A program made the position numbers and the translations under genes. Below are positions 38,066-64,000 of a stretch of DNA of 64,000 nt, piece after piece. The first letter of the stretch is position 1. Each line of letters opens with the position of its first letter. Origin of the DNA: Rodentibacter pneumotropicus DSM 21403 (GTDB lineage: Bacteria > Pseudomonadota > Gammaproteobacteria > Enterobacterales > Pasteurellaceae); NCBI RefSeq assembly GCF_000379905.1, contig NZ_KB904045.1, positions 1 through 64,000 of the forward strand. Direction: 5' to 3'. The notes beneath the pieces are model-generated. The model did not search any database, was not told the DNA's origin, and saw only the letters and a list, made by a program, of their open reading frames with translations.

Positions 38066-39027
38066 GTCTCACCTCCCTGTAATAATCCATTGGCAAAAAT
38101 ACCAATAAAACGTTGGGCGGAAGGAATCGCGCCGAATGTCCAGACAGCCGGTAAAATCAATGGTTCTTTGGCAAGGGGCAGATGTTGCCACAATGTATTG
38201 TGGGTGAGGGCGGTGGCAATATTATTCGGATAAGGTTTTATCACCACAAAACGGGTATTCGACGGTAATTTTGCCAGTTCGGTAATGTCTATATTTTGGA
38301 ATCCCCAAGTGTTCACTTCAGGCAAATAGGCGTTTTTAAAACCGAGTTGGCGGATAACCGCACCAAGCAAACTATTCTCCCCATAAATGCGTAAATGACG
38401 GGTATCAATAAATTGCACCAGCGCGATCGGACGTTCGGTGAATTTCTGCAATAAGGGGCGATAGCGGGTAATATCTTGATCATATTTTGCGAGTAATTGG
38501 TGCACTGCTTGCGGTTTACCAATAATATTGCCAATTTTCTGAGTGGCAGCAACGACATTTCCCCAAGCATTGCCTTCCTTGTAAAATTCAACGTTATACA
38601 CTTTCCCATAAGGGGCAAATTTCTCATTGAGCGCAGCATAGAAATTGCTATGAATAAAGGTTAATGATTGTTGATTTAATGAATGAGATAGTGTCGCAAT
38701 TTGTTCAACATTGGGTTGTAAACGTACGCCTAAATCAATCGTATCTTTAGGCAGTTGGGGTTTTCTCACCCAAGTTTGATAGCTTTTCACATCGCCTACG
38801 GCAAGAGGCGGTTGTTCAAGGGCAATGAGCGTTTCGGCAACCGACCAATCCACAGTGGCATAGGCGGATTTTGTTTCTTCGGCAACGCTATTCAAGGCAC
38901 TGAAAAGTGCGGTCACAAAAAACGAAGTTTTTTGAACGTTGGCTCTGCAAACAGTGGCAAAGCCATAAATAATCACGTCAGTGATTATGTATAAAATAGT
39001 CAGTGAATTTTTAAGACGGTGTAACAT
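38059..39027 (-). CDS. fhuD: Iron-hydroxamate substrate-binding protein FhuD
   Basis: A 322-residue class III binding protein. The mature part shows DWSVAETLIALEQPPLAVGD near residue 60, VRKPQLPKDTIDLGVRLQPNVEQIATL, and a long connecting helix, all typical of FhuD. The N-terminus is longer than usual (about 35-50 residues with two hydrophobic stretches). The start may therefore be further in, or the chain may stay membrane-anchored. The ATG at 39027 follows the fhuC stop by one base. It delivers ferric siderophore to FhuB. Confidence 0.87.
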   Translation of the reverse strand: MLHRLKNSLTILYIITDVIIYGFATVCRANVQKTSFFVTALFSALNSVAEETKSAYATVDWSVAETLIALEQPPLAVGDVKSYQTWVRKPQLPKDTIDLGVRLQPNVEQIATLSHSLNQQSLTFIHSNFYAALNEKFAPYGKVYNVEFYKEGNAWGNVVAATQKIGNIIGKPQAVHQLLAKYDQDITRYRPLLQKFTERPIALVQFIDTRHLRIYGENSLLGAVIRQLGFKNAYLPEVNTWGFQNIDITELAKLPSNTRFVVIKPYPNNIATALTHNTLWQHLPLAKEPLILPAVWTFGAIPSAQRFIGIFANGLLQGGETW

Positions 39028-41347: not shown

Positions 41348-42085
41348 ATGAAACTAGATATTATTTTACAAGAACCGGATTTTATCATTATTTACAAGCC
41401 TTGTGGCATTAGCGTGCATAAAGACTGCTCAGACGTTGGTCTAACCACGTTGCTTGCCGAACAATTAGGCGTACCGCAAGTTTGGTTGGTACATCGACTG
41501 GATAAAATTACATCAGGGCTATTAATTCTTGCCTTAAATGCAGAAAGTGCGGCTGAATTTTCACGACTTTTTGCCGAGCATAAAATTAAGAAAACCTATC
41601 TCGCATTAAGCCATCAAAAGCCAAAAAAGAAACAAGGTCTGATTATCGGTGATATGAAAAAGGCCCGTAACGGTGCGTGGAAACTTTGCCAAAGCAAAGA
41701 AAATCCGGCGATTACCCGATTCGAAAGCGTCAGCTGCGAACCGAATTTACGCCTGTTTTTCCTCAAACCCCAAACCGGCAAAACCCATCAATTGCGTGTC
41801 GCCATGAAAAGCCTTGGCAGCCCGATTTTAGGTGATGATCTCTATGGCAAAAACACGGCTGAAATTATTCACAAACTCGATCACTCGTTTGTTCACCTCT
41901 CACGAGGACGTTGGCAAAGCCAACGTTCAAAAAATGTTGTTTTTTGTGACCGCACTTATTTGCACGCTGCAAGGTTGGAATTTGAATTCCTCGGTGAGAA
42001 ATTTGATATAAAGGCAATGCCGAAAGAGGGGGAGTGGTGGCAAAGGGCGTCTGTGCAAAATATGATTTTGCAAGGTGAAATGTAA
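41348..42085 (+). CDS. RluA-family pseudouridine synthase (TIGR01621-like)
   Basis: The start is placed at ATG 41348 (MKLDIILQEPDF), giving 245 residues. Earlier in-frame ATGs lie inside the divergent cls gene. The catalytic motif HRLDKITSGLLIL carries the conserved Asp near residue 55. KTYLALSHQK and QTGKTHQLRVAMKSLGSPILGDDLYG are the other RluA signatures. It lacks an S4 domain. It is the short RluA-like class seen in Haemophilus (HI0042-like, from memory). The RNA target is unknown. Confidence 0.88.
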   Translation: MKLDIILQEPDFIIIYKPCGISVHKDCSDVGLTTLLAEQLGVPQVWLVHRLDKITSGLLILALNAESAAEFSRLFAEHKIKKTYLALSHQKPKKKQGLIIGDMKKARNGAWKLCQSKENPAITRFESVSCEPNLRLFFLKPQTGKTHQLRVAMKSLGSPILGDDLYGKNTAEIIHKLDHSFVHLSRGRWQSQRSKNVVFCDRTYLHAARLEFEFLGEKFDIKAMPKEGEWWQRASVQNMILQGEM

Positions 42086-55220: not shown

Positions 55221-55354
55221 TGTTTATTTCCTAATTATGATTTTGAGATGGTTTATTATAGGGAATCTAAAAGATTTGTGAATAAAAAAAATGATGTTTT
55301 TAGTGCGTTAAAAACTCATTTTATATCAAGGTGTTATGAGTGATAAATCATTGA

Positions 55355-55386
55355 AGTGTTCCGAAATTCTGGATAGTATTCCGAAA
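55355..55386. repeat. Direct repeat beside integrase (possible att/arm sites)
   Basis: AGTGTTCCGAAA (55355-55366) and AGTATTCCGAAA (55375-55386) are direct copies with one difference, spaced 20 bases start to start (two helical turns). They touch the integrase stop codon. Spacing on one face of the helix would suit arm-type integrase or Xis sites. Confidence 0.4.
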
Positions 55387-56421
55387 CTATACTTTAGTCG
55401 GTAAGATAATTTTATCTTTTCGGATGTAACGTTTTGTCATTTGTGGGGATGTGTGACCGAGTTGTTTTTGTGCTGTTTCCGTATCGGAAGAAAGGAATTT
55501 ATCTGTACCGGCTTTAGCCCGTAGATCTCGAAACTGAACGGCTAAGATTTCGTCAGCATATTCTTGAAAGTGCTTAGCTGCCCTTTCTCTTATTTTAGCA
55601 AACCAGTTAGATAACGCAGCTCGACTTAATTTTGCTCCACGTTTATTACAGAACAGATACTCTCTATCTTCCGATAACCTTCTGTTGAAGATCTCTTTTA
55701 GTTGCCCTACTACGGCGATCCGCATTCGTTTCTTTGTCTTTTTCTGAACAATGTACAATTCATCATCAATAATTTGTTTTTTCTCAATGCTTACTATATC
55801 AATTGGTCTTTGTCCTGTAAGGTAGGCTACATCAATAAGATCACGAAGTTGCTGATCGGCGAAATAATAGATTTTTTCTAAGATTCGATCTTCTATATAG
55901 ATTTCTCTGAATTTTACCTTGTATCGCTGAATCCCTTCGCTTGGACAAGGGAATCTAGTATAGCCCCACTCACGGGCTTTCATCCAAATGTGGTGGAATA
56001 ATGCAATTTCATTATTGGCTGAGGCTGTGTAATTTTTTCTCCAATCTAAATATTGTTTGATATGCTGAGGTTCAATTTTATCCAGTGGTGCGGGAGGGTT
56101 GCCAAAGAAAGCAAGTAGATTTTTTAGATTTACTCGATTGGCTCTTTGTGTATTTAACGCTTTCAATGGTATGACTTCGTTTTGATACCGTATTGCGACT
56201 GTCACAAAGGTGATGACTTTCTCTCTTATCTTCACCACGTCACAGTTTAGCCTTGCCGTTTCCAATACAGCTAAATATTTGTCCATACCGAGCGGCTTTT
56301 CTTTTTTATCACTCATTACATAATAGTAATATGTGACAATTTTCCCATTCTTTCTTTGACGTTTTCGGCAAATTAGATTTTGTGGTAAGCCTTGGTTTTC
56401 TCTTTTGCGTGGACGGGCCAT
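55387..56421 (-). CDS. Phage integrase (tyrosine recombinase)
   Basis: A 344-residue tyrosine recombinase with an N-terminal basic arm-binding region (MARPRKRENQGLPQ, RKRQRKNGK), a core-binding SAM-like domain (about 85-165), and a catalytic domain. The catalytic residues seen are Arg in TGQRPIDIV (~218), a Lys in the beta-hairpin KKTKKRMR, Arg in FRDLRAKAG (His replaced in the box II HxxR), and LGHTSPQMTKRYIR with the nucleophile Tyr (~336). It joins or excises the prophage at a site next to tyrS. Confidence 0.93.
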   Translation of the reverse strand: MARPRKRENQGLPQNLICRKRQRKNGKIVTYYYYVMSDKKEKPLGMDKYLAVLETARLNCDVVKIREKVITFVTVAIRYQNEVIPLKALNTQRANRVNLKNLLAFFGNPPAPLDKIEPQHIKQYLDWRKNYTASANNEIALFHHIWMKAREWGYTRFPCPSEGIQRYKVKFREIYIEDRILEKIYYFADQQLRDLIDVAYLTGQRPIDIVSIEKKQIIDDELYIVQKKTKKRMRIAVVGQLKEIFNRRLSEDREYLFCNKRGAKLSRAALSNWFAKIRERAAKHFQEYADEILAVQFRDLRAKAGTDKFLSSDTETAQKQLGHTSPQMTKRYIRKDKIILPTKV

Positions 56422-56431
56422 AATTCATCTC

Positions 56432-56674
56432 CTAAACTTGTAATACGGCAGGTCTCCAAGGGATTTCTTCGTGGCGTTGAGATTCTGCATGAGTAATTGA
56501 TCGTGATTTAGCTTTGTCATAATCTCTGCGAACAATAGGGTAGCCATGGGCGTTTTCTTTGAAGGGGATTCCCATTGCATTGAGTTGTTCAATAATGAGT
56601 GATTTATTTTTTCTTCCCGTTAGAAACTCAATTTCAGGCTTGGAAAGAAAATCTTCGTAGATATTGATTTTCAT
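56432..56674 (-). CDS. DUF4224-family phage protein (excisionase-position)
   Basis: An 80-residue protein with FLSKPEIEFLTGRKNKSLII followed by EQLNAMGIPFKENAHGYPIV and RRD, the DUF4224 pattern. The family is found next to phage integrases, where it may act as a recombination directionality factor. It lies 10 bases upstream of the integrase on the same strand, with GGAGG before its ATG. Function inferred from position only. Confidence 0.8.
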   Translation of the reverse strand: MKINIYEDFLSKPEIEFLTGRKNKSLIIEQLNAMGIPFKENAHGYPIVRRDYDKAKSRSITHAESQRHEEIPWRPAVLQV

Positions 56675-56769
56675 ATTTCCTCCATCATTTCAAAATATCC
56701 GGCACTTCAACAACTTTTAGCTGTTACGGTGTTACATCTTTGTAATTAAGTCAGTATTGGACGTGCGCC

Positions 56770-56877
56770 CTAGGTGAGGGTTTTTCTTGTTTCCATGACT
56801 ACAAGCCATTCTCTTCGGAATTGGCTTTCAAGCACAATGTACCGTTTGCCGTTTATAACTTGTAATTCTTGTGGCAT
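56770..56877 (-). CDS. Small phage protein, 35 residues, unknown
   Basis: ATG at 56877 follows TTGGAGGAACAA, a strong ribosome-binding site, and the frame runs to TAG at 56770: MPQELQVINGKRYIVLES, then QFRREWLVVMETRKTLT. It looks like a small beta-strand-rich phage peptide. No family is recognised. The good ribosome-binding site and its place in a run of leftward genes support it. Confidence 0.5.
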   Translation of the reverse strand: MPQELQVINGKRYIVLESQFRREWLVVMETRKTLT

Positions 56878-56898
56878 TTGTTCCTCCAAATAAAAAAC

Positions 56899-57030
56899 CT
56901 AGATTTCGCTAGGTTGTGTGATTTGGTGTTGAATAATCCTTCCATCGTAATCATTACCGAGTTCTAAATGCCATGCCAACCTGATAAACACGAAGGCGTG
57001 CAGGGCGATTTTTATTCTCTTTATGCTCAT
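56899..57030 (-). CDS. Small phage membrane peptide, paralogue 1
   Basis: A 43-residue frame from ATG 57030 with AAGGAACAG upstream. A basic start (MSIKRIKIALHAFVFIRLAW) gives one hydrophobic helix, followed by an NDYDGRI motif. A second copy at 61481-61591 has the same plan (LKIVLGVFVIIS, then HDYDGKI), and both follow the same conserved leader hairpin. This paralogy supports both being real genes. Function unknown. Confidence 0.6.
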   Translation of the reverse strand: MSIKRIKIALHAFVFIRLAWHLELGNDYDGRIIQHQITQPSEI

Positions 57031-57040
57031 TTTCTGTTCC

Positions 57041-57120
57041 TTTTGCTGAATTTAGGGTGCAAGAAACCGCCACAGGATTTTCACGGGGAAAAGTGTGGTC
57101 GGTTTTAATTAAGTTTTAGA
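57041..57120 (-). repeat. Prophage leader repeat, copy A (hairpin 57064-57105)
   Basis: First of three related ~75-base segments (others at 61602 and 63271). On the minus strand it reads AAACCG, bulged A, CCACA, a short inner TTTTC/GAAAA helix, then TGTGG and CGGTTT. A conserved tail (CTTGCACCCTAAATTCAGC) leads to the ribosome-binding site of the small gene at 57030. It starts at the stop codon of the KilA-N gene. Confidence 0.75.
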
Positions 57121-57777
57121 TTACTTGGTAGTTATTGGACTTTGGATTGTAATTGTTGAGATGTTTTAGCTCCCACCAATTACTCTTATAGTCGTATTGG
57201 AAACTGGCTGTGAGGCGTTTCAGGAACTTATGCACTTCCCGAATGGTGTGTCTATTCGTAGGCTTGTCCGTAGATTGCACCGGAATATTTTGACCGATAG
57301 TTTCCATTGCCGGATAAATCATTCGGCAGGTTTCTGTGCCTCGTGAAGCGATGAACCATACCCACGGTAACAGTTGTAATTCGTGTTCGGTAAATTCAAA
57401 GGTGAATTTCTTTTCCGGCTCGGGTAGGGTAAGTTGTTGCATTTTTTGCAACTGCTCATTTTTGTGCATATTCAAAAATACCCGTAGAACAACTAAATGA
57501 AATTTCGGGCTGATCCACATTGCGTAGGCTAAAATGAGTTCTTCGCAGGCGTATGTGCTTGGATTTTTACCACCTCGAATAGTTTAATCGCCAAAGTAGG
57601 AATTCCTACTTTGCTTTCTTGCTCTATTTCCGCAATAAGATCTTTGGTTTGTTGGTTTGATAAAAATAAAATGGGTTTATGTTTTGCTTCACCGCCACTG
57701 GTTTTGTGTAAGTCGGTTAATGAATATAGGTTTTCAAAAGTGCGGATAGATTTTGATAAGATTTGTAAATTAGTCAT
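57116..57777 (-). pseudogene. KilA-N domain protein (antirepressor type), frameshifted copy
   Basis: The N-terminal part runs from ATG 57777 (MTNLQILSKSIRTFENL; ribosome-binding site TAGGAGC) to about 57585. The C-terminal part continues in another frame as GGKNPSTYACEELILAYAMW and ISPKFHLVVLRVF, then to the TAA at 57116. Restoring one A in the run at 57583-57585 would rejoin them as AIKTIRGGKNP. The intact paralogue at 63368 shows the same block order. KilA-N proteins bind DNA and are often phage antirepressors. The C-terminal domain (about 120 residues) differs from that of the paralogue. It lies directly downstream of a C4-like antisense RNA. The frameshift could be real or a sequencing error. 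Confidence 0.82.
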
Positions 57778-57831
57778 TTTGACTGCTCCTAGTAGATTTT
57801 CGATAATTTCACCCAATTTCGACATTAGGTG

Positions 57832-57910
57832 GTCGGGAGGTTCGAAAGCCTTCTACTAGGTTGAGGCTGGACGTATTTCCTTACGGTATCGTATTAGTCG
57901 CCCTCCCGAC
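57832..57910 (-). ncRNA. C4-like antisense RNA before KilA-N gene
   Basis: A 79-nt minus-strand segment is closed by a perfect 9-bp stem: GTCGGGAGG (57910-57902) with CCTCCCGAC (57840-57832). Inside are two blocks, CCTAGTAGA (57860-57852) and TTTCGA (57847-57842). They are complementary to TCTACTAGG (57796-57788) and TCGAAA (57803-57798), which overlap and precede the ribosome-binding site of the KilA-N gene. Size, position before an antirepressor-type gene and the two-block complementarity all match phage P1/P7 C4 RNA, which blocks ant translation. I call it by this logic and not by a covariance search. Confidence 0.75.
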
Positions 57911-57926
57911 ATATCAGGATTACGAT

Positions 57927-57951
57927 ATAAAAAAATCGCCTTGTGGCGATT
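57927..57951 (-). terminator. Intrinsic terminator upstream of the C4-like RNA
   Basis: The minus strand reads AATCGCC-ACAA-GGCGATT followed by seven T residues. It ends the DUF2335 transcript (and its 3' hairpin) just before the C4-like RNA. Confidence 0.85.
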
Positions 57952-57957
57952 AGTGAA

Positions 57958-58002
57958 CTATCCGCCTAGTAGAAAAAGGTTTCGACACCTTGAGGCGGAT
58001 AG
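57958..58002 (-). ncRNA. 3'-UTR hairpin carrying C4 target-like blocks (possible decoy)
   Basis: CTATCCGCCT and AGGCGGATAG form a perfect 10-bp stem. The loop on the minus strand holds TCGAAA and TTCTACTAGG, the same two blocks, in the same order, as the C4-like RNA's target before the KilA-N gene. It lies between the DUF2335 stop (58025) and a terminator, so it would be in that mRNA's tail. A decoy role is inference. Confidence 0.5.
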
Positions 58003-58024
58003 TATAAAGTGTTGGGGTTGTCAA

Positions 58025-58402
58025 TTATCTATTGCGTTTTAAAAATGCAATAGCAAGTGAACCGATACAAGTACTGGCTATAATCCAAGAAAGTTTTTCA
58101 TAACCATTCATTGCGGCATAAATTGAACCATAAATTCCGCCAGTTGCAATACCTGCGGCAAGTAATAATGCCCCCATTCTTTCTATAAAAGTAAACCAGT
58201 CAATTTTGACTTCTCGTTTACGGCGATTTTCAGCTTCTTTAGTAGTTTGTTGAACTACAAAATCAACCACATCAGGGCGAAATTGATGTAGTCGTTCAAG
58301 AGCATTAACATCTAAAATAGGGCTGTCCGTTTGGCTATGTGATAAATGGATTTCATTGCCTGTGGCATTTTTTGCCTTAACTTGCGTATTTTTGGTTGCC
58401 AT
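58025..58402 (-). CDS. DUF2335-family membrane protein
   Basis: The start is placed at ATG 58402 (MATKNTQVKAKN), 125 residues; a longer frame from 58447 lies within the upstream gene. The middle section RLHQFRPDVVDFVVQQTTKEAENRRKREVK is the DUF2335 signature (charged helix before the membrane). Two C-terminal helices follow (GALLLAAGIATGGIYGS and SWIIASTCIGSLAIAFL). DUF2335 proteins are common in prophages and are of unknown function; superinfection exclusion has been suggested for membrane proteins of this kind. It overlaps the previous gene by 26 bases. Confidence 0.75.
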   Translation of the reverse strand: MATKNTQVKAKNATGNEIHLSHSQTDSPILDVNALERLHQFRPDVVDFVVQQTTKEAENRRKREVKIDWFTFIERMGALLLAAGIATGGIYGSIYAAMNGYEKLSWIIASTCIGSLAIAFLKRNR

Positions 58403-58568
58403 ATTTTTGGATATTGCGATTAAGATTTGATGTGACAGTTTTAACATCGCCTTTTAATTTTTGGCGATCAGCCTTAAAACCATTGTGTGTTGATGGATAT
58501 TGTGCAGGGCTTTGCATAACCGCACCGACAACATCTAAGTTTGTTAAGCGTTTAAGTAAAGCGACCAT
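58377..58568 (-). CDS. Small phage protein, 63 residues, unknown
   Basis: The frame begins MVALLKRLTNLDVVGAVMQS with AAAGGTAAA upstream. It continues PAQYPSTHNGFKADRQKLKG, then DVKTVTSNLNRNIQKYG. A hydrophobic start followed by a basic helix is typical of small phage early proteins. Its end overlaps the DUF2335 start, suggesting translational coupling. No family is recognised with certainty. Confidence 0.55.
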   Translation of the reverse strand: MVALLKRLTNLDVVGAVMQSPAQYPSTHNGFKADRQKLKGDVKTVTSNLNRNIQKYGNQKYAS

Positions 58569-58702
58569 AATTTTACCTTTTATATTGACCGGTTGCTGTC
58601 ACCAACCATGTGTAAGTGTGGTTATCTTAATCCGAGTTAGAGCGGTTTGTCAAATTTTTCAAAAACAAAACCACTTATTAAAATGTGAGATATGCCTCAA
58701 AA

Positions 58703-58939
58703 TTAAAATGATTTTGTTGAAGATGAAAATCGCTGTGCTATTCTCTTGATCGCCTTTGCTAACCACGAGGTATCTTTTATCGGAATGTGAATTGATTGCG
58801 TAATTTCGCCTTCGTAGGTTGCTTGGGAAACCGCCTTTATTTTTTCTTTGGCTTGCTTTGGCGTATCAGCAAAGATATTGATAACCCAAGTTTGACCCTC
58901 AAAATGATAAGTAAAGGTATATTCTTTCATTTGGTGCAT
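58703..58939 (-). CDS. Small phage protein, 78 residues, unknown
   Basis: From ATG 58939 the frame reads MHQMKEYTFTYHFEGQTWVI, then NIFADTPKQAKEKIKAV. An N-terminal beta pair precedes an amphipathic helix and a basic C-terminus (AKAIKRIAQRF). The ribosome-binding site AGGAG comes from a palindrome (58941-58950) shared with the divergent YegP-like gene at 58951. A start at 58930 is possible. No family recognised. Confidence 0.65.
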   Translation of the reverse strand: MHQMKEYTFTYHFEGQTWVINIFADTPKQAKEKIKAVSQATYEGEITQSIHIPIKDTSWLAKAIKRIAQRFSSSTKSF

Positions 58940-58940
58940 A

Positions 58941-58950
58941 AGGAGCTCCT
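58941..58950. promoter_or_regulatory. Palindromic Shine-Dalgarno shared by two divergent genes
   Basis: AGGAGCTCCT is its own reverse complement. Rightward it places AGGAG 5 bases before ATG 58951; leftward it places AGGAG 6 bases before ATG 58939. The two start codons are only 11 bases apart, so each promoter must lie within the other gene and the two mRNAs must overlap at their 5' ends. Confidence 0.8.
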
Positions 58951-59133
58951 ATGTATTTTGAAATTTATAAAGATGCGAAAGGTGAATTTCGCTGGAGATT
59001 GAAAGCGGGTAATCACCAATCTATAGCGACAAGTGGTGAAGGCTATACAACAAAGCAAAGTTGCCAGCACGCCATTGGAGTTATTAAAACTGTAAATGAA
59101 CAAACAGAAGTTAAAGACTTGACTGTTGCTTAA
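58951..59133 (+). CDS. YegP-like DUF1508 protein
   Basis: A 60-residue single DUF1508 unit: MYFEIYKDAKGEFRWRL, then KAGNHQSIATSGEGYTTKQS, CQHAIGVIKTV. The family forms a small alpha/beta fold, usually in tandem; here there is one copy. It is the only rightward gene in this part of the prophage and has its own terminator at 59139. It shares its ribosome-binding palindrome with the leftward gene at 58939. Biological role unknown. Confidence 0.85.
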   Translation: MYFEIYKDAKGEFRWRLKAGNHQSIATSGEGYTTKQSCQHAIGVIKTVNEQTEVKDLTVA

Positions 59134-59138
59134 AATTT

Positions 59139-59163
59139 AGCCCTGTAATAACAGGGCTTTTAT
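59139..59163 (+). terminator. Terminator after the DUF1508 gene
   Basis: AGCCCTG (59139-59145) pairs with CAGGGCT (59152-59158), followed by TTTA. It lies six bases after the stop codon. Confidence 0.75.
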
Positions 59164-59240
59164 AAAATGAAACTGCACATAAGAGTGGTTCGTTTAATTA
59201 CTTTCGGTTTGTATCAATAACCGGCAACTCAACAAACGCA

Positions 59241-59522
59241 TTAAGCGGTTGTGGTGTCGGTTGGTGTCGGTTGGTGTTGATTGCGGCGTGTTTCTATCCA
59301 ATCCAACAATTCTTTAAATTCATCATAATAACGGGCTTGTTTTGTTGCCTGCTTGATGATGAAATCTCGTTGTTCGCTGTCTAAAAGCAGCCAGTATTTT
59401 TTGACTTGTTCGATTGCTCTCTGTCGTTCATTGTCTGAATTGGTGTTGAAATTGTCATAAACATATTTGCCAAACAATTCAGCGAAAAACGAATAAGCAA
59501 TGCTGATATGTATTTCGTTCAT
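59241..59522 (-). CDS. Small phage protein, 93 residues, unknown
   Basis: The start is placed at ATG 59522 (MNEIHISIAYSFFAELFGKY), 9 bases after AGGAGG. An ATG at 59531 stands directly on the ribosome-binding site. The protein is helical, with QRAIEQVKKYWLLLDSEQRD in the middle and a Thr/Pro-rich tail (HQPTPTDTTTA) encoded by a short tandem repeat (TGTCGGTTGG twice, 59258-59280). No family recognised. Its ribosome-binding site lies at the end of the beta-helix gene upstream. Confidence 0.6.
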   Translation of the reverse strand: MNEIHISIAYSFFAELFGKYVYDNFNTNSDNERQRAIEQVKKYWLLLDSEQRDFIIKQATKQARYYDEFKELLDWIETRRNQHQPTPTDTTTA

Positions 59523-59527
59523 TTTAT

Positions 59528-60289
59528 TCATCCTCCTAAAATTCGACTTTTCGCAACTTCGATTAATAACCCATACTCTCGCTTGGTTTTCTCATTGTGT
59601 ACCTCTGCGGATTCCGCTAAAAACTCTTCAATCGTTCCGGTAAAACAACCCCGAGTAACGATTAATCCGTCCTTGCCATTGAATACCGTAAGCGTACCGT
59701 TTTTTGAACCCACACTGCTTGCCCAGAAAATCATTCTACATTCGGAAATGTTGGCAAAATTTCTTACACAAGCATTACCACACACCCGAGCATCTCCGTA
59801 CACCTTAGCATTACCGTACACCTCAGCATTACCGTACACTTCAGCATCTCCGGACACCCAAGCATCACCGTACACCTTAGCATTACCGGACACCCAAGCA
59901 TTACCGTACACCTCAGCATCTCCGTACACCTTAGCATTACCGTACACCTTAGCATTACCGTACACCTTAGCATCTCCGTACACCTCAGCATTACCGTACA
60001 CCTCAGCATTACCGTACACCTCAGCATCACCGAACACCCAAGCATTACCGTACACGTTAGCATTACCGTACACGTTAGCATTACCGGACACCCAAGCATC
60101 GCCGGATACCATAGCATCGCCGAACACCCAAGCATCACCGGATTGAGCTAAATTTTTCTCAGCCTCGATATAGCCGCCAAGTTCACCGGCTACGATTGCA
60201 CCAAAAGAAATTAATGCTCTAATTCGGTAGAGGGTTATTCCAAAATATTCTTTGGTGTCGTCTTTTAATAGTTCATATTTTTTCGTCAT
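59528..60289 (-). CDS. Beta-helix (hexapeptide-repeat) phage protein
   Basis: A 253-residue protein. The N-terminal ~45 residues (MTKKYELLKDDTKEYFGITL) lead into about 21 tandem six-residue units of the form (N/D)AxVYG or (D)AWVSG (about residues 50-176). This is the regular pattern of a left-handed beta-helix. A C-terminal domain follows: GSKNGTLTVFNGKDGLIVTR, then FTGTIEEFLAES. Similar proteins occur in prophages of many bacteria without known function. The DNA repeat is 18 bases long and near-identical between units, so copy number can change in frame. Confidence 0.85.
   Translation of the reverse strand: MTKKYELLKDDTKEYFGITLYRIRALISFGAIVAGELGGYIEAEKNLAQSGDAWVFGDAMVSGDAWVSGNANVYGNANVYGNAWVFGDAEVYGNAEVYGNAEVYGDAKVYGNAKVYGNAKVYGDAEVYGNAWVSGNAKVYGDAWVSGDAEVYGNAEVYGNAKVYGDARVCGNACVRNFANISECRMIFWASSVGSKNGTLTVFNGKDGLIVTRGCFTGTIEEFLAESAEVHNEKTKREYGLLIEVAKSRILGG
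59761..60142 (-). repeat. 18-bp tandem repeats coding the beta-helix units
   Basis: About 21 units of 18 bases, all close to GGTAATGCTGAGGTGTAC in coding sense. Because the unit is a multiple of three, unequal recombination would change the length of the protein without breaking the frame. A long rightward frame through the same repeats is a by-product of their regularity. Confidence 0.9.
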
Positions 60290-60332
60290 TTTATTTACCT
60301 ATAAAAAAGCCCACGGAAGTGGGCGGTGTGGT

Positions 60333-60785
60333 TCAGAATGGAATATCGTCATCAAGATTATTCATCTGTTGGCGTTCTTCATCAGAATAGCCGTCCCATT
60401 CTTTTTGTTGAGTCGGTTTATTTTGTGTTTGATTGTTGCCGTTTCTATCTTGTGAGTTGCCTAACATTTGCAAAACATCACCTTGAATTTCTGTTGTGTA
60501 GCGCTCTTGCCCGTTTTGGTCTTGCCATTTGCGGGTACGCAGGCGACCTTCTACATACACTTGCGAACCTTTATGCAAATATTCGCCATAAATTTCCGCT
60601 TGACGGCGATAGAACACGATGCGGTGCCATTCGGTAATTTCACGACGTTCACCTGTATTGCGATCATTCCAACTTTCACCGGTTGCAACACTTATATTAG
60701 CGACGGTATCACCATTTGGCATTGTGCGAACATCGGGAGCGCTACCTAAGCGACCCACAATAATGACTTTATTTACTCCTGCCAT
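60333..60785 (-). CDS. ssb: Single-stranded DNA-binding protein (phage copy)
   Basis: A 150-residue SSB with the OB-fold N-terminal region ([57 protein letters not shown] at about 55-90), a Gln/Asn-rich linker, and the acidic tip DDDIPF that binds partner proteins. It is shorter in the linker than the chromosomal SSB. It lies in the recombination module with the DUF1071 protein 10 bases upstream on the same strand. Confidence 0.95.
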
Positions 60786-60795
60786 TTCATCTCTC

Positions 60796-61470
60796 CTAAA
60801 CCGTTAAATTAAATAAGCATTCATCATAGAAGCTGTTGTAAGAATCAATCAGATTCGGGTATTTTTTCTCTAGCCACGGCATTTGTTTGCTGTATAGATC
60901 TTCAAGTTCCGGTTTACTTTTACATTCACGCAAGCCGTCTTGAAGTTTTTCCCACGTTGATTTTTCTGCTTGGGTAGGCGGTTGGTCAGGTGGCGTAGAG
61001 TTCATATTCTGCTTCGTTGAGCTGTTTGAGTTGGGCGGCAATTTTGGTTTTGGGGTTTCTTTGCTGTCTTCTTCATTCGGCAAATCTTCACCGGCATAGA
61101 TGTAATGTCCTAAACCGCACATTGCGATCGCTTTAGCAAGACAACGCATATAGGCTTTGTTGATTGCTATTGCATCAGGATTTTTAATGGATTTATTTAA
61201 GTGATCCATTACCGGTAACCACATATAACGGCTAAATTCTTCTTCGCCTTCTTTAATGGTGAGGGTTATGCCCACAATCACCGAACCATCGGGCAGATGC
61301 CTATCATCGTGGATAACGTAGGTAGATTGGGGAAAATATTCCATCAGCACGCCCCAAGCCCACGCCCAAGAGAGATAGGTGAGGGCATATTTCCCCGTGC
61401 CTTTGGCTTCGGTTTTGTCGTTTACGTTGATTGTTGAAAGCGTATCCCACGCTTTTTGTTGTAGACTCAT
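60796..61470 (-). CDS. DUF1071 single-strand annealing protein (Rad52-like)
   Basis: The start is placed at ATG 61470 ([18 protein letters not shown]), with AAGGAAAA upstream, giving 224 residues. [16 protein letters not shown] near residue 36 and [26 protein letters not shown] near residue 110 are the DUF1071 hallmarks. The Pro/Ser/Thr-rich linker and helical C-terminus follow. DUF1071 proteins are phage single-strand annealing recombinases. Together with SSB and the exonuclease at 61724 it makes a phage recombination set. Confidence 0.87.
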
Positions 61471-61480
61471 TGTTTTTTCC

Positions 61481-61591
61481 TTATTGTTGAATGTGAGAAA
61501 TTTTCCCATCGTAGTCGTGGGGGAGATCCAGTTGATATGCGCTGATAATCACGAACACGCCAAGCACGATTTTTAAACCTTTTTTGAACAT
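61481..61591 (-). CDS. Small phage membrane peptide, paralogue 2
   Basis: A 36-residue frame from ATG 61591 (MFKKGLKIVLGVFVIISAYQ, then LDLPHDYDGKISHIQQ) with AAGGAAGAAA upstream. It shares the basic start, single hydrophobic helix and DYDGKI motif with the peptide at 56899-57030. Both follow the same leader hairpin. It lies 10 bases before the DUF1071 gene. Confidence 0.65.
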   Translation of the reverse strand: MFKKGLKIVLGVFVIISAYQLDLPHDYDGKISHIQQ

Positions 61592-61601
61592 TTTTTCTTC
61601 C

Positions 61602-61683
61602 TTTTGCTGAAATTTGGGTGAGACAAACCGCCACACGATTTTCATGAGGGGAAAAGTGCGGTCGGTTTTGATTAAGTTTTAGA
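61602..61683 (-). repeat. Prophage leader repeat, copy B (hairpin 61625-61668)
   Basis: Second copy of the ~75-base leader. On the minus strand the stem is AAACCG, bulged A, CCGCAC with GTGTGG, CGGTTT (one G-U pair), with an inner TTTTC/GAAAA helix. The first arm contains a complete uptake signal, which copies A and C have lost or never had. Confidence 0.75.
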
Positions 61684-61723
61684 ATAAGTGAATTAATCCG
61701 AAAGGGCGGTGGGTGTCAATGTG

Positions 61724-62374
61724 TTACTCCATAAAATTCATTCGTTTATAAACCTGTCTTACCCGCTCAACATCTTTGGCGCAATATTCAGCGACTTCGT
61801 TGATTCGTCCATCTTGCACCGCTTGCCATACTTTTGAGCCGTCAATATCGCCCTTTTGCTCAATGCCTAGCACTTTGCAGAGCTTGTCTAGTGATGGGGA
61901 TTTTTCTCTGTTATAACCGCACCATTCCAACATCGTGTCGTAAGTATTGCGGTTATCTATTTTGTAATAAGGCTTAACGCCATTGATGATATGACGATGC
62001 CACATAAATAAGCCGTCAAATTTGGCCAGGTTATGTCCGATAAATTTCGGCACGGTTTTGCACTTATTGACTTCCGTTTTGAGATAGTCGTTAAAGCGGG
62101 TTAAAATATCCCATTCTCGGTCGGGTGATTGCCAATCTTCACGATAGAATGTTTGCACCGGCTCATCATTAATTGAAACACTAATCGCCACAATTTCCCC
62201 AAATGCGCCATCAAGCGAGGTTTTATTTACAGCTTCTGCTTTATTTTCTTCCAACCACTTCGCAATGGTTTCTTCGTTTTTGTAGTTTGCCGGTGCTTTT
62301 AAATTCTCACAAACATAGGCTTGAAAGTCTGTGTTTTGAGTTGGAATGGTTTCAATGTCAATGTAAACGTTCAT
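61724..62374 (-). CDS. DnaQ-like 3'-5' exonuclease (PolB-exo2 type)
   Basis: The start is ATG 62374 (MNVYIDIETIPTQN), with AAGGA 6 bases upstream, giving 216 residues; TTG at 62380 is an unlikely alternative. The DEDDy residues are visible: DIE near residue 5-7, GHNLAKFDGLFM near 112 with the Asp, and YCAKDVERVRQVY near 198 with the final Asp. It belongs to the predicted 3'-5' exonuclease group found in phage recombination clusters. With the DUF1071 protein and SSB it would process and anneal DNA ends. Confidence 0.87.
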   Translation of the reverse strand: MNVYIDIETIPTQNTDFQAYVCENLKAPANYKNEETIAKWLEENKAEAVNKTSLDGAFGEIVAISVSINDEPVQTFYREDWQSPDREWDILTRFNDYLKTEVNKCKTVPKFIGHNLAKFDGLFMWHRHIINGVKPYYKIDNRNTYDTMLEWCGYNREKSPSLDKLCKVLGIEQKGDIDGSKVWQAVQDGRINEVAEYCAKDVERVRQVYKRMNFME

Positions 62375-62383
62375 ATTCAATCC

Positions 62384-62503
62384 TTAAAATGGCATTTCGC
62401 CATATTCTTCAAGTAAAGCCTGTAAATCTTCGGGTTCGATAATGTGGAAGTTAAGTAAATCTCGAATCTTATTGAGAGATTCTTGTTTGGTTTCATCTGT
62501 CAT
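62384..62503 (-). CDS. Small phage protein, 39 residues, unknown
   Basis: From ATG 62503 with GGAGG 7 bases upstream: MTDETKQESLNKIRDLLNFH, then IIEPEDLQALLEEYGEMPF. It is acidic and helical. The start overlaps the stop of the gene at 62500 (ATGA), and its stop is next to the exonuclease ribosome-binding site. This tight packing supports it. No family recognised. Confidence 0.6.
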   Translation of the reverse strand: MTDETKQESLNKIRDLLNFHIIEPEDLQALLEEYGEMPF

Positions 62504-62655
62504 TGCAGCACCTCCCATATCACCTCACCGTTGTAGTCGTTATCATCTTGCCAATCGTAAATATCCGGTTCGGGCTTGCCTTGTGGTTCGTCAAACTGGT
62601 CGTAATAATCGTGGTCGCTGCCGCATTCCCACGGAGAGTAGTATCGTTTAGCCAT
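62500..62655 (-). CDS. Small acidic phage protein, 51 residues, unknown
   Basis: From ATG 62655 with GGGGAGA upstream: MAKRYYSPWECGSDHDYYDQ, then a Pro/Asp/Tyr-rich stretch ending NGEVIWEVLQ. It is strongly acidic. It overlaps the preceding gene's stop by 8 bases and the next start by 4, as in a coupled cluster. Function unknown. Confidence 0.6.
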   Translation of the reverse strand: MAKRYYSPWECGSDHDYYDQFDEPQGKPEPDIYDWQDDNDYNGEVIWEVLQ

Positions 62656-62866
62656 TTTTCTCTCCCCATTTATACTTTTTCTTTGTCACATTATTTAATA
62701 CTTCAAGCCGTTTCTTGCGCTTGTCGATTTCAAGCCGGCAGAACTCCTCATCACAATGATTCTGACTTCGCCAAGTTGCTTTACCATTCATAATTTCAAT
62801 GGCAACAAATCCCAAGCCTTTTGGATGAGGTTCAACCCTGTAATCTCGTCTTTTATTGCTTGCCAC
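62648..62866 (-). CDS. Small phage protein, 72 residues, unknown
   Basis: The frame begins MASNKRRDYRVEPHPKGLGF, then VAIEIMNGKATWRSQNHCDE. The middle has the look of a small beta domain and the C-terminus is a basic helix (LEIDKRKKRLEVLNNVTKKKYKW). It overlaps its neighbours on both sides. No family recognised. Confidence 0.6.
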   Translation of the reverse strand: MASNKRRDYRVEPHPKGLGFVAIEIMNGKATWRSQNHCDEEFCRLEIDKRKKRLEVLNNVTKKKYKWGEKNG

Positions 62867-63251
62867 GGTCGATTTCCTTTTGCTTTTGGGCTGTGTAGTG
62901 GAGTAGCGCCTGTTCTGCTTGTGGGGTTAAATTTGGTTGCCAATCGCCATTTTCCTCATGCCAAAGTTTTCGGGCTTCGGCTCGGGCTTGTTGGCTTATT
63001 TGCTCGCTGAGTTCGTGATTGTGCCAGTCTGTGGGATTCCCCCACGCTTGTGAGACACTAAAAACGACAATCAATACGGCTGCGGTAGTGAGTAGAATAA
63101 GGAGACATTCGCCAAGAAAGGCGAGAAATTCAAGAATAGATTTGTGCATAGTGGTGTCCTTTTTTGGTGGCTCGTTGAGAAATATGGTGCGGGAACGCAT
63201 AGCAGGTTGTTCCGGTTTCTTTTTTCCGGTTCGTTTTTGTCGTTTGTTCAT
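62853..63251 (-). CDS. Phage membrane protein, unknown function
   Basis: Up to 132 residues from ATG 63251, preceded by AAAAAGGAAAC after leader repeat C. An internal ATG at 63149 also has a good site (AAAGGACACC) and would give a 98-residue protein starting MHKSILEFLAFLGECLLILL. There may be two overlapping products. One membrane helix (LGECLLILLTTAAVLIVVFS) is followed by a charged, Gln-rich periplasmic or cytoplasmic tail. The first 34 residues are very basic (KRQKRTGKKKPEQP). Confidence 0.6.
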   Translation of the reverse strand: MNKRQKRTGKKKPEQPAMRSRTIFLNEPPKKDTTMHKSILEFLAFLGECLLILLTTAAVLIVVFSVSQAWGNPTDWHNHELSEQISQQARAEARKLWHEENGDWQPNLTPQAEQALLHYTAQKQKEIDRGKQ

Positions 63252-63270
63252 GTTGTTTCCTTTTTAATCG

Positions 63271-63342
63271 ATTTGCTGAATTTAGGGTGCAAGAAACCGC
63301 CGCAGGCTTAAAAAAGCGCGGTCGGTTTTGGTTGAGTTTTAA
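63271..63342 (-). repeat. Prophage leader repeat, copy C (hairpin 63294-63328)
   Basis: Third copy of the leader. On the minus strand the stem is AAACCG, bulged A, CCGC with GCGG, CGGTTT, and an inner GCTT/AAGC helix replacing TTTT/AAAA of the other copies. The 3' tail is identical to copy A. It lies just after the second KilA-N gene and before the membrane protein gene. Confidence 0.75.
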
Positions 63343-63367
63343 TCAAGTAACTGTTGAAAGGCTTTGA

Positions 63368-63943
63368 CTAATGCCAATCGTTTGGTATTAGATTGAATAA
63401 ACTGTTGGCTTTTGCCATTGTTTGTTCAAGTGGGTATTTAAAATTGTAGAGATACTGCCCGCCAATTTCACTTTTCATTTGTTTTGGAATGTTAGTGCCA
63501 CGTAGTTTTTCTTGCATTTCGTGGGCTTGGAAACAAAAGCTATACATTCTGATGAAAAGGGCTAATGCTTCTTCGCTTTGGGAAATGTTATCAATACGGT
63601 AATCAGGCTCAGGCAAAGCGAGTTGTTTTGGTTCATTCCGGTGCATTGCCAAGAATGCCCGTAGGACGACTAAATGAAATTTAGGGCTAATCCAAGTCGC
63701 ATAGGCTAAAACGAGTTCTTCGCACGCGTAGGTTCCACCGTGTGTACCTCGTAGGGTTTTTAGCGGTTGTACTGCTGGATCTTCTTTTTGGATTTCTTCA
63801 ATCAATTCTTTTGTGCTATCTAGGCGAAGAAATAAAACTGGTTTATGTTTTGCTAGATTACCACTTGCTTGATGACAATCATTTAAACAATGAAGATTTC
63901 CAAAAGTGCGGATAGATTTTGATAAGATTTGTAAGTTTGACAT
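63368..63943 (-). CDS. KilA-N domain protein (antirepressor type), intact paralogue
   Basis: The start is placed at ATG 63943 (MSNLQILSKSIRTFGNL), with GGAG 9 bases upstream, giving 191 residues. The KilA-N domain fills about 1-120, with KHKPVLFLRLDSTKELIEEI and GTHGGTYACEELVLAYATWI followed by SPKFHLVVLRAFL. The N-terminal domain is nearly the same as in the copy at 57777, but the C-terminal ~70 residues are different (SEEALALFIRMYSFCFQAHE). The shared N-terminus with swapped C-termini is typical of phage antirepressors. The upstream sequence at the window edge resembles the 3' stem of a C4-like RNA. Confidence 0.85.
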   Translation of the reverse strand: MSNLQILSKSIRTFGNLHCLNDCHQASGNLAKHKPVLFLRLDSTKELIEEIQKEDPAVQPLKTLRGTHGGTYACEELVLAYATWISPKFHLVVLRAFLAMHRNEPKQLALPEPDYRIDNISQSEEALALFIRMYSFCFQAHEMQEKLRGTNIPKQMKSEIGGQYLYNFKYPLEQTMAKANSLFNLIPNDWH

Positions 63944-63987
63944 TTTTTTATGCTCCGAATGTTTTGTGTTCATTCGATCACTTTTGT

Positions 63988-64000
63988 AGGGTGATCGGGC
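63988..64000 (-). ncRNA. 3' stem of a second C4-like RNA, cut by window edge
   Basis: The minus strand at the edge reads GCCCGATCACCC. This aligns with CCCGACCACC at the 3' end of the C4-like RNA at 57832, at a comparable distance (about 45-55 bases) from the ATG of the paralogous KilA-N gene. The remaining part would lie to the right of the window. Confidence 0.4.

Follow-up and report, generated by a model that had tools for sequence, protein, structure and literature searches.

Three hairpins in a Rodentibacter prophage

The DNA analyzed comprises positions 1 to 64,000 of the 67 kb contig NZ_KB904045.1 of Rodentibacter pneumotropicus DSM 21403 and is called the window here. It includes a prophage stretch (55301-64000) that starts with an integrase gene (55387-56421, PHROG 1), and the prophage operon read on the minus strand carries three copies of an RNA hairpin, the element studied here. 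Copy 1 (57064-57105), copy 2 (61625-61668), and copy 3 (63294-63328) are minus-strand structures located where an earlier note on this DNA had placed them. The folds proposed there were obtained for all three, with folding energies of -15.7, -18.0, and -17.5 kcal/mol and z-scores of -4.49, -4.63, and -3.24 for copies 1, 2, and 3, respectively; none of 200 shuffled sequences folded equally well in any of the three cases. Copy 1 contains a bulged A, and the apical part of copy 3 is short. An Rfam scan of the window assigned the hairpin itself to no family.

The hairpin is followed by a U-rich stretch, by a box CACCCNAAATTCA and, in all three copies as claimed before, by the ribosome-binding site (RBS) of a small open reading frame (ORF). 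The box reads CACCCTAAATTCA behind copy 1 (57047-57059, minus) and copy 3 (63277-63289, minus), and CACCCAAATTTCA, with one mismatch, behind copy 2 (61608-61620, minus). The small ORFs encode 43 aa (56899-57030, minus) and 36 aa (61481-61591, minus) after copies 1 and 2, both lacking a Pfam or PHROGs match, and 132 aa after copy 3 (62853-63251, minus; PHROG 16199, unknown function). Upstream of copy 1 lies an antirepressor gene (57116-57825, minus), which looks broken because its pieces, KilA-N (57529-57825) and P22_AR_C (57116-57583), are in two overlapping frames. Copy 3 is preceded by an antirepressor-type gene (63368-63973, minus; KilA-N, 4.8e-15).

An uptake signal sequence in the stem arm

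The 5' arm of the hairpin RNA holds ACCGCACTT, the reverse of AAGTGCGGT, which is the core of the Hin-type uptake signal sequence (USS) (PMC1626085). The USS is a short DNA tag by which Pasteurellaceae recognize the DNA that they import. The core is exact in copy 2 (plus strand, 61654-61662) and has one mismatch in copies 1 and 3. Read on the sequence, the bulged A and the G of a G·U pair both correspond to core positions, and Gallibacterium stems without USS lack the bulge. The earlier note did not recognize the kind of hairpin; one arm of the hairpin is the USS used by the host family, in which USS are known to form part of intrinsic terminators (PMC1852404).

The window holds 44 USS cores; the expected number is 0.39. 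When the own genome was searched at the DNA level, with 40 of 220 first-look candidates scored, 41 matches were listed. They comprise the three prophage copies and 38 other places, the latter all within query positions 3-54 of 91 and centered on the USS arm. The element also has the two T-tracts of a USS at the set spacing. At +15 to +18 after the core, T was found at frequencies of 0.85/0.98/0.96/0.96 in 53 distinct element flanks and of 0.70/0.84/0.88/0.84 in 43 host USS, as compared to 0.67/0.56/0.44/0.00 at the same offsets in nine flanks of stems without USS. The outer T-tract lies outside the hairpin and adjoins the antirepressor stop codon. No exact core was found outside the hairpins in the prophage stretch, against about 0.78 per kb in the rest of the window. 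Across 52 loci, 39 exact USS lay inside elements (4.9 kb) and 147 outside (490 kb); the inside figure is inflated because 27 of these loci had been found with a pattern that includes the USS arm. Most copies carry one USS arm only, not the inverted pair that is typical of USS terminators; the latter were counted in PMC1852404 with at least one exact match, so that the pair is not required.

Host dialect was set by whole-genome counts of AAAGTGCGGT and ACAAGCGGTC. Among 90 elements from fetched loci, those in Hin hosts carried 65 Hin cores, no Apl core, and 4 times neither; in Apl hosts 9 had the Apl core, 1 the Hin core, and 5 neither, and in hosts without dialect 2 were Hin and 4 neither. Hence, the core in the stem is that of the host dialect in 65/69 and 9/15 elements, respectively. 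Element-level Fisher values treat related elements as independent; by genus, the counts were 10 to 0 in Hin hosts and 1 to 4 in Apl hosts (p 0.004). The count covers fetched loci, and many weak and some strong repeat matches in the same genomes lie outside it. Excluded were a fumarase/permease host locus (L199, L200, L202, L203), repeats of the same place, likely host inverted-USS terminators without box (L189, L190, L193, L196-L198, L204, L208, L209, L211), and viral contigs without host data (L104, L112, L116, L119).

Retention of pairing despite sequence change had been claimed from the three window copies. Within these, a single pair changes from A-U through G·U to G-C (copies 1, 2, and 3), and the case is otherwise thin; the supposed change of the inner helix in copy 3 is just a shorter apical part, with no pair-by-pair replacement. 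Among the first 34 copies (Rodentibacter-genus loci and viral contigs), picked with a pattern in which most of both arms was fixed, no double-sided change relative to the commonest pair was seen, which leaves the argument from three copies weak. Across the whole family the claim was borne out. In a MAFFT alignment of 47 sequences, hand-picked from model matches with Gallibacterium-type stems left out, 97.9% of cells pair and 5 of 12 pairs show double-sided changes, for instance AAACCG/CGGTTT to AATCCG/CGGATT and CCGCAC/GTGCGG to CCGCTT/AAGCGG. For two of the five pairs the evidence is one sequence each; the remaining three are backed by 20, 5, and 5 cells. None of 500 shuffles reached five, a result that is not a probability because the sequences are related, and slid versions gave at most two. 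An anchored count without folding, restricted to those tail-seeded sites that have ACCGC upstream (99 of 148, with chance sites among the 148), yielded 515 pairing cells out of 594 in the lower helix versus 218-296 in slid versions.

These data bear on the idea of pure molecular drive, by which uptake and recombination would have spread USS into tolerant non-coding spots and the hairpin would be a functionless by-product. USS gain is known in prophages of this family (PMC6776037), and host terminators hold USS too, as described in PMC1852404 and as seen in five inverted USS pairs in the host part of the window. However, the stem is kept in copies without USS (Gallibacterium stems ACCGCCTTAC..GTGAGGCGGT, also L201 and L227), and changes of dialect are matched by compensating ones in the 3' arm; we regard drive alone as very unlikely.

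Distribution, neighboring genes, and the conserved box

A covariance model of 34 copies, a check suggested in the earlier note, matched 72 of 140 Pasteurellaceae genomes at E 0.01 under stricter filters and with 38 candidates scored per genome; the weak end of these matches includes host inverted-USS terminators. A conserved structure common to a group of prophages, as had been supposed, is present. The model was built on Hin-type copies and over-finds Hin stems, a bias that is absent from a search with the tail only (TTNTNNCACCCNAAATTCA), which in turn needs the box. The tail search gave 30 places in 24 of the 140 genomes, and its reversed control gave none. At each of the 30 places a stem folds near the U-rich stretch, a count that has no folding control, and one place (L225) looks coding; by reading, 16 contain an exact core (15 Hin, 1 Apl). 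A pattern of box plus RBS found 39 matches versus 2 for the reversed control (both in genome G110), and 30 of them were fetched: 26 lie behind a hairpin and 4 are apparently coding.

A search of named genomes with a tail pattern including GGTTT returned 13 stretches. Eleven are from Pasteurellaceae; the other two, related matches from Aequorivita and Leeuwenhoekiella, are apparently coding. Named records carrying the element are mostly Rodentibacter, and copy L025, from a genome of the same genus as the window, is identical to a copy of R. mrazii (L083) over the stretch compared. When phage records were searched with DNA of the copy 1 region, no match was obtained; queries from two other loci matched phages S1249, Aaphi23, Mannheimia phage PHL101, and kin.

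An upstream ORF was identified for 106 of 112 element rows, and 91 of these ORFs fall into one antirepressor-type single-linkage cluster; among the 112 rows are some false entries, namely L250-L252, one entry at L170, probably L181, and L199 and L203 from the host locus. Domains in the 102 distinct upstream ORFs were P22_AR_C (57), Bro-N (37), KilA-N (36), AntA (11), ORF6C (4), and P22_AR_N (3). The stem starts at a nearly fixed distance past the antirepressor-type stop codon, with a median of 10 nt (10-90%: 8-13 nt; n = 91). Between the box and the following start codon, in contrast, lie anywhere from 25 to 51 nt (n = 98), and 23 families are represented among the 97 downstream proteins.

The box also occurs behind stems of unrelated sequence. 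In the loci fetched, an adjoining stem is present at 60 of 63 exact box sites and at 42 of 48 sites with one mismatch. Two scrambled boxes had no exact site, and their one-mismatch sites had a stem in 2 of 6 and 1 of 11 cases. At two mismatches adjacent stems were not in excess (50/153, as compared to 30/98 and 67/127 for the scrambled boxes); therefore, only copies with at most one mismatch, or with two and a matching stem end, were used. A promoter in the box was rejected, as no consensus site was listed at the three window boxes. Pairing of a trans-acting RNA with the box was also rejected: complementary sites were not in excess (20 matches; 6-34 in 30 shuffles).

The earlier note had read the hairpin as a leader or protein-binding RNA of the small gene behind it. 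Hairpin and box would then form a 5' element controlling translation or stability of the next gene and acted on by a phage or host factor. Such a role would agree with a box that leads to an RBS in most copies, adjoins a stem at nearly every exact site, and is shared by copies with unrelated stems, the latter having been found by box seeding. The spacing does not support it: the position of the stem follows the preceding stop codon and not the start codon. The downstream genes are diverse, partner sites for the box are not enriched, and the window scan gave no Rfam family for the hairpin. We consider a leader unlikely.

A probable terminator of C4-type RNA/antirepressor units

The immI region of phage P1 is an immunity unit consisting of a C4 antisense RNA and an antirepressor. 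Units of this type are established (Rfam RF01695, RF02221; Gifsy-1 isrK-orf45-anrP-isrJ, PMC4825925), and copy 1 resembles them in having a promoter-like site, a C4-like RNA complementary to the RBS region of the antirepressor gene, and that gene itself. The promoter-like site, TTGACA-N18-TAAGAT, marks the left end of the unit (58624-58653, minus). The C4-like antisense RNA (57824-57910, minus) matches Rfam sRNA-Xcc1 with 53.8 bits at a threshold of 53, and its CCTAGTAGA (57860-57852) is complementary to TCTACTAGG (57796-57788) near the antirepressor RBS; this antisense match was found for copy 1 only. The C4-like RNA of the copy 3 unit (contig 63985-64071) lies mostly beyond the window and scores 51.2 bits, which is below the same threshold. 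In a scan of 20 loci, 18 had a C4 or sRNA-Xcc1 RNA upstream, with some scores under the family threshold; a further scan, which shares one locus with the first, found such an RNA in 7 of 7 loci. Among the 20 loci, L213 and L136 scored below threshold, L143 held only AaHKsRNA82, and L166 had none. The exact motif TTGACA-N16-19-TAAGAT occurs 0.6-1.9 kb upstream in 35 of 87 stretches and on the opposite strand in none.

The CCTAGTAGA of copy 1 is complementary to a second, identical TCTACTAGG further upstream (57973-57965), which is followed by a terminator-like stem (57951-57934, minus). Together they are possibly a decoy or regulator RNA.

Next to copy 2, a 27-mer (61693-61719, minus) identical to the sequence at contig position 64197, before the copy 3 unit, represents a remnant of the left end of a unit. 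It is joined directly to an apparent antirepressor 3' end with the hairpin, and neither a C4-like RNA nor an antirepressor gene is present. Judged from this arrangement, the junction is probably the deletion scar of an antirepressor unit. It keeps the hairpin at the apparent antirepressor 3' end, although the preceding gene seems deleted; we therefore assign the hairpin to the gene before it, which again speaks against a leader.

With about 11-17 pairs in its stem and a U-rich stretch after it, directly past a stop codon, the hairpin has the shape of an intrinsic terminator, and the check for a terminator suggested in the earlier note was the right one. The U-tail score exceeded the random 95% quantile in 78 of 108 copies, and its median was 4.2 as compared to 2.2-5.2 for the five inverted USS pairs of the host. 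Furthermore, stems of other sequence stand at the same place. At L231, the same site as L261 (genome G003), a plain stem with a T8 run precedes the same box and a gene of the same downstream family. In the P2-like phage PHL101, and in L212, L217, and L220, whose upstream genes cluster with ORF38 of PHL101, the box has another stem with T5-T6 before it. In PHL101 itself (L278, 2480-2530), the box and its terminator-like stem lie before ORF39, and the upstream ORF has no Pfam match.

Taken from sequence comparison, the hairpin is probably a USS-built and presumably leaky intrinsic terminator that closes a unit of C4-type RNA and antirepressor gene. The order in such a unit would be promoter, C4-type antisense RNA, antirepressor gene, and hairpin with U-rich tail. 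Hairpin and U-rich stretch would release many of the transcripts past the antirepressor gene, and some read-through, or an antitermination state, would let the polymerase reach the next gene of the operon, the RBS of which lies behind the box CACCCNAAATTCA. Partial termination is to be expected from the U-tracts of the window copies, as these are interrupted (TTTCTTG, TTTGTCT). The other stem arm would be kept complementary to the USS arm. Since the 5' arm is a reversed USS, the terminator would double as a complete uptake tag, usually in the dialect of the host; the arm may serve DNA uptake or may owe its spread to biased uptake, which has been proposed for prophages (PMC6776037).

Several observations weigh against the terminator. 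The tails of 30 of the 108 copies were not above the random 95% quantile, the interrupted U-tracts are those of the window copies themselves, and a simple terminator scan did not list the latter. In L031, L038, L043, L061, L142, L145, and L195 a second strong terminator-like stem comes directly after the hairpin and the beginning of the box, as if the first stem were weak (e.g., L031, L038, L195). Termination within the operon would cut off the downstream genes unless it is leaky, and the box is not accounted for by termination. Mannheimia phage PHL101, L184, L187, and L261 carry the element without a recognized antirepressor upstream. The promoter search became unspecific at two mismatches (73/87 on the same and 39/87 on the opposite strand). 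Against the dialect match stand exceptions, namely a Hin-type stem in one Apl host (L185), the absence of either core from 5 of 15 Apl-host elements, and a one-mismatch core in two of the three window copies.

USS-containing intrinsic terminators are known in Pasteurellaceae and Neisseria (PMC1852404, PMC13020248; Kroll 1992 and Smith 1995, as cited in PMC1852404). The element resembles those described there in the hairpin with USS past a stop codon and in the U-rich tail. It differs in being phage-borne and mostly located behind antirepressor genes, in the conserved box behind it, in a dialect that is usually that of the host, and in most copies combining one reversed USS arm with an imperfect complement. 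As compared to the Gifsy-1 unit, which is described with isrJ at its 3' end (PMC4825925), the unit here ends in the USS hairpin and the box. The SAS and ESAS elements of cluster K mycobacteriophages (PMC3203893) are likewise inverted-repeat elements before phage gene starts with several copies per genome; as described, they are tied to translation starts, whereas the element has no fixed relation to the start codon, is tied to the preceding stop codon, and carries the host USS. Accumulation of USS has been described for Aggregatibacter and Haemophilus prophages (PMC6776037), and the shared feature is that phages of this family carry USS of the host dialect; the section concerned counts USS per genome, and the main text does not use the terms terminator, hairpin, intergenic, or antirepressor. 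We found no published description of the element in the open-access literature, and the phage version of the USS terminator with its box looks new.

Element and box may also act mainly as recombination homology between phages, possibly by way of natural transformation, and thus as a linker for cassette exchange, a function compatible with termination. A single upstream cluster, that of modular antirepressors, occurs in combination with 16 downstream families, with 26 distinct upstream-downstream combinations among the 96 elements having both; copy 2 resembles the scar of a deleted unit, and most copies hold a complete USS. Mosaicism is, however, expected from any shared sequence, and the clusters are single-linkage; we regard a linker as the main role as unlikely. 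An extension that joins both functions is similarly speculative: the terminator at its fixed place behind C4-controlled antirepressors would be a complete host-dialect uptake tag, DNA of lysed prophages would be taken up preferentially, and immunity cassettes would be swapped into resident prophages with element and CACCCNAAATTCA box as their right-hand border.

If the terminator interpretation is true, one short sequence obeys two codes, that of an RNA stem-loop and that of a DNA uptake dialect, and the stem follows the dialect of the host while pairing stays. Antirepressor cassettes of Pasteurellaceae prophages could then be recognized by the element, and a connection of natural transformation with the reshuffling of immunity genes among phages would become open to test.

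Additionally, the window contains two matches to Rfam AaHKsRNA22 (38907-39003, plus; 41858-41955, minus), which have a USS core at their edge and overlap long ORFs. In the prophage, positions 59528-60289 (minus) encode a protein of 253 aa that contains many short repeats of the GNA.VYGDA type; we take it to resemble a left-handed beta helix.

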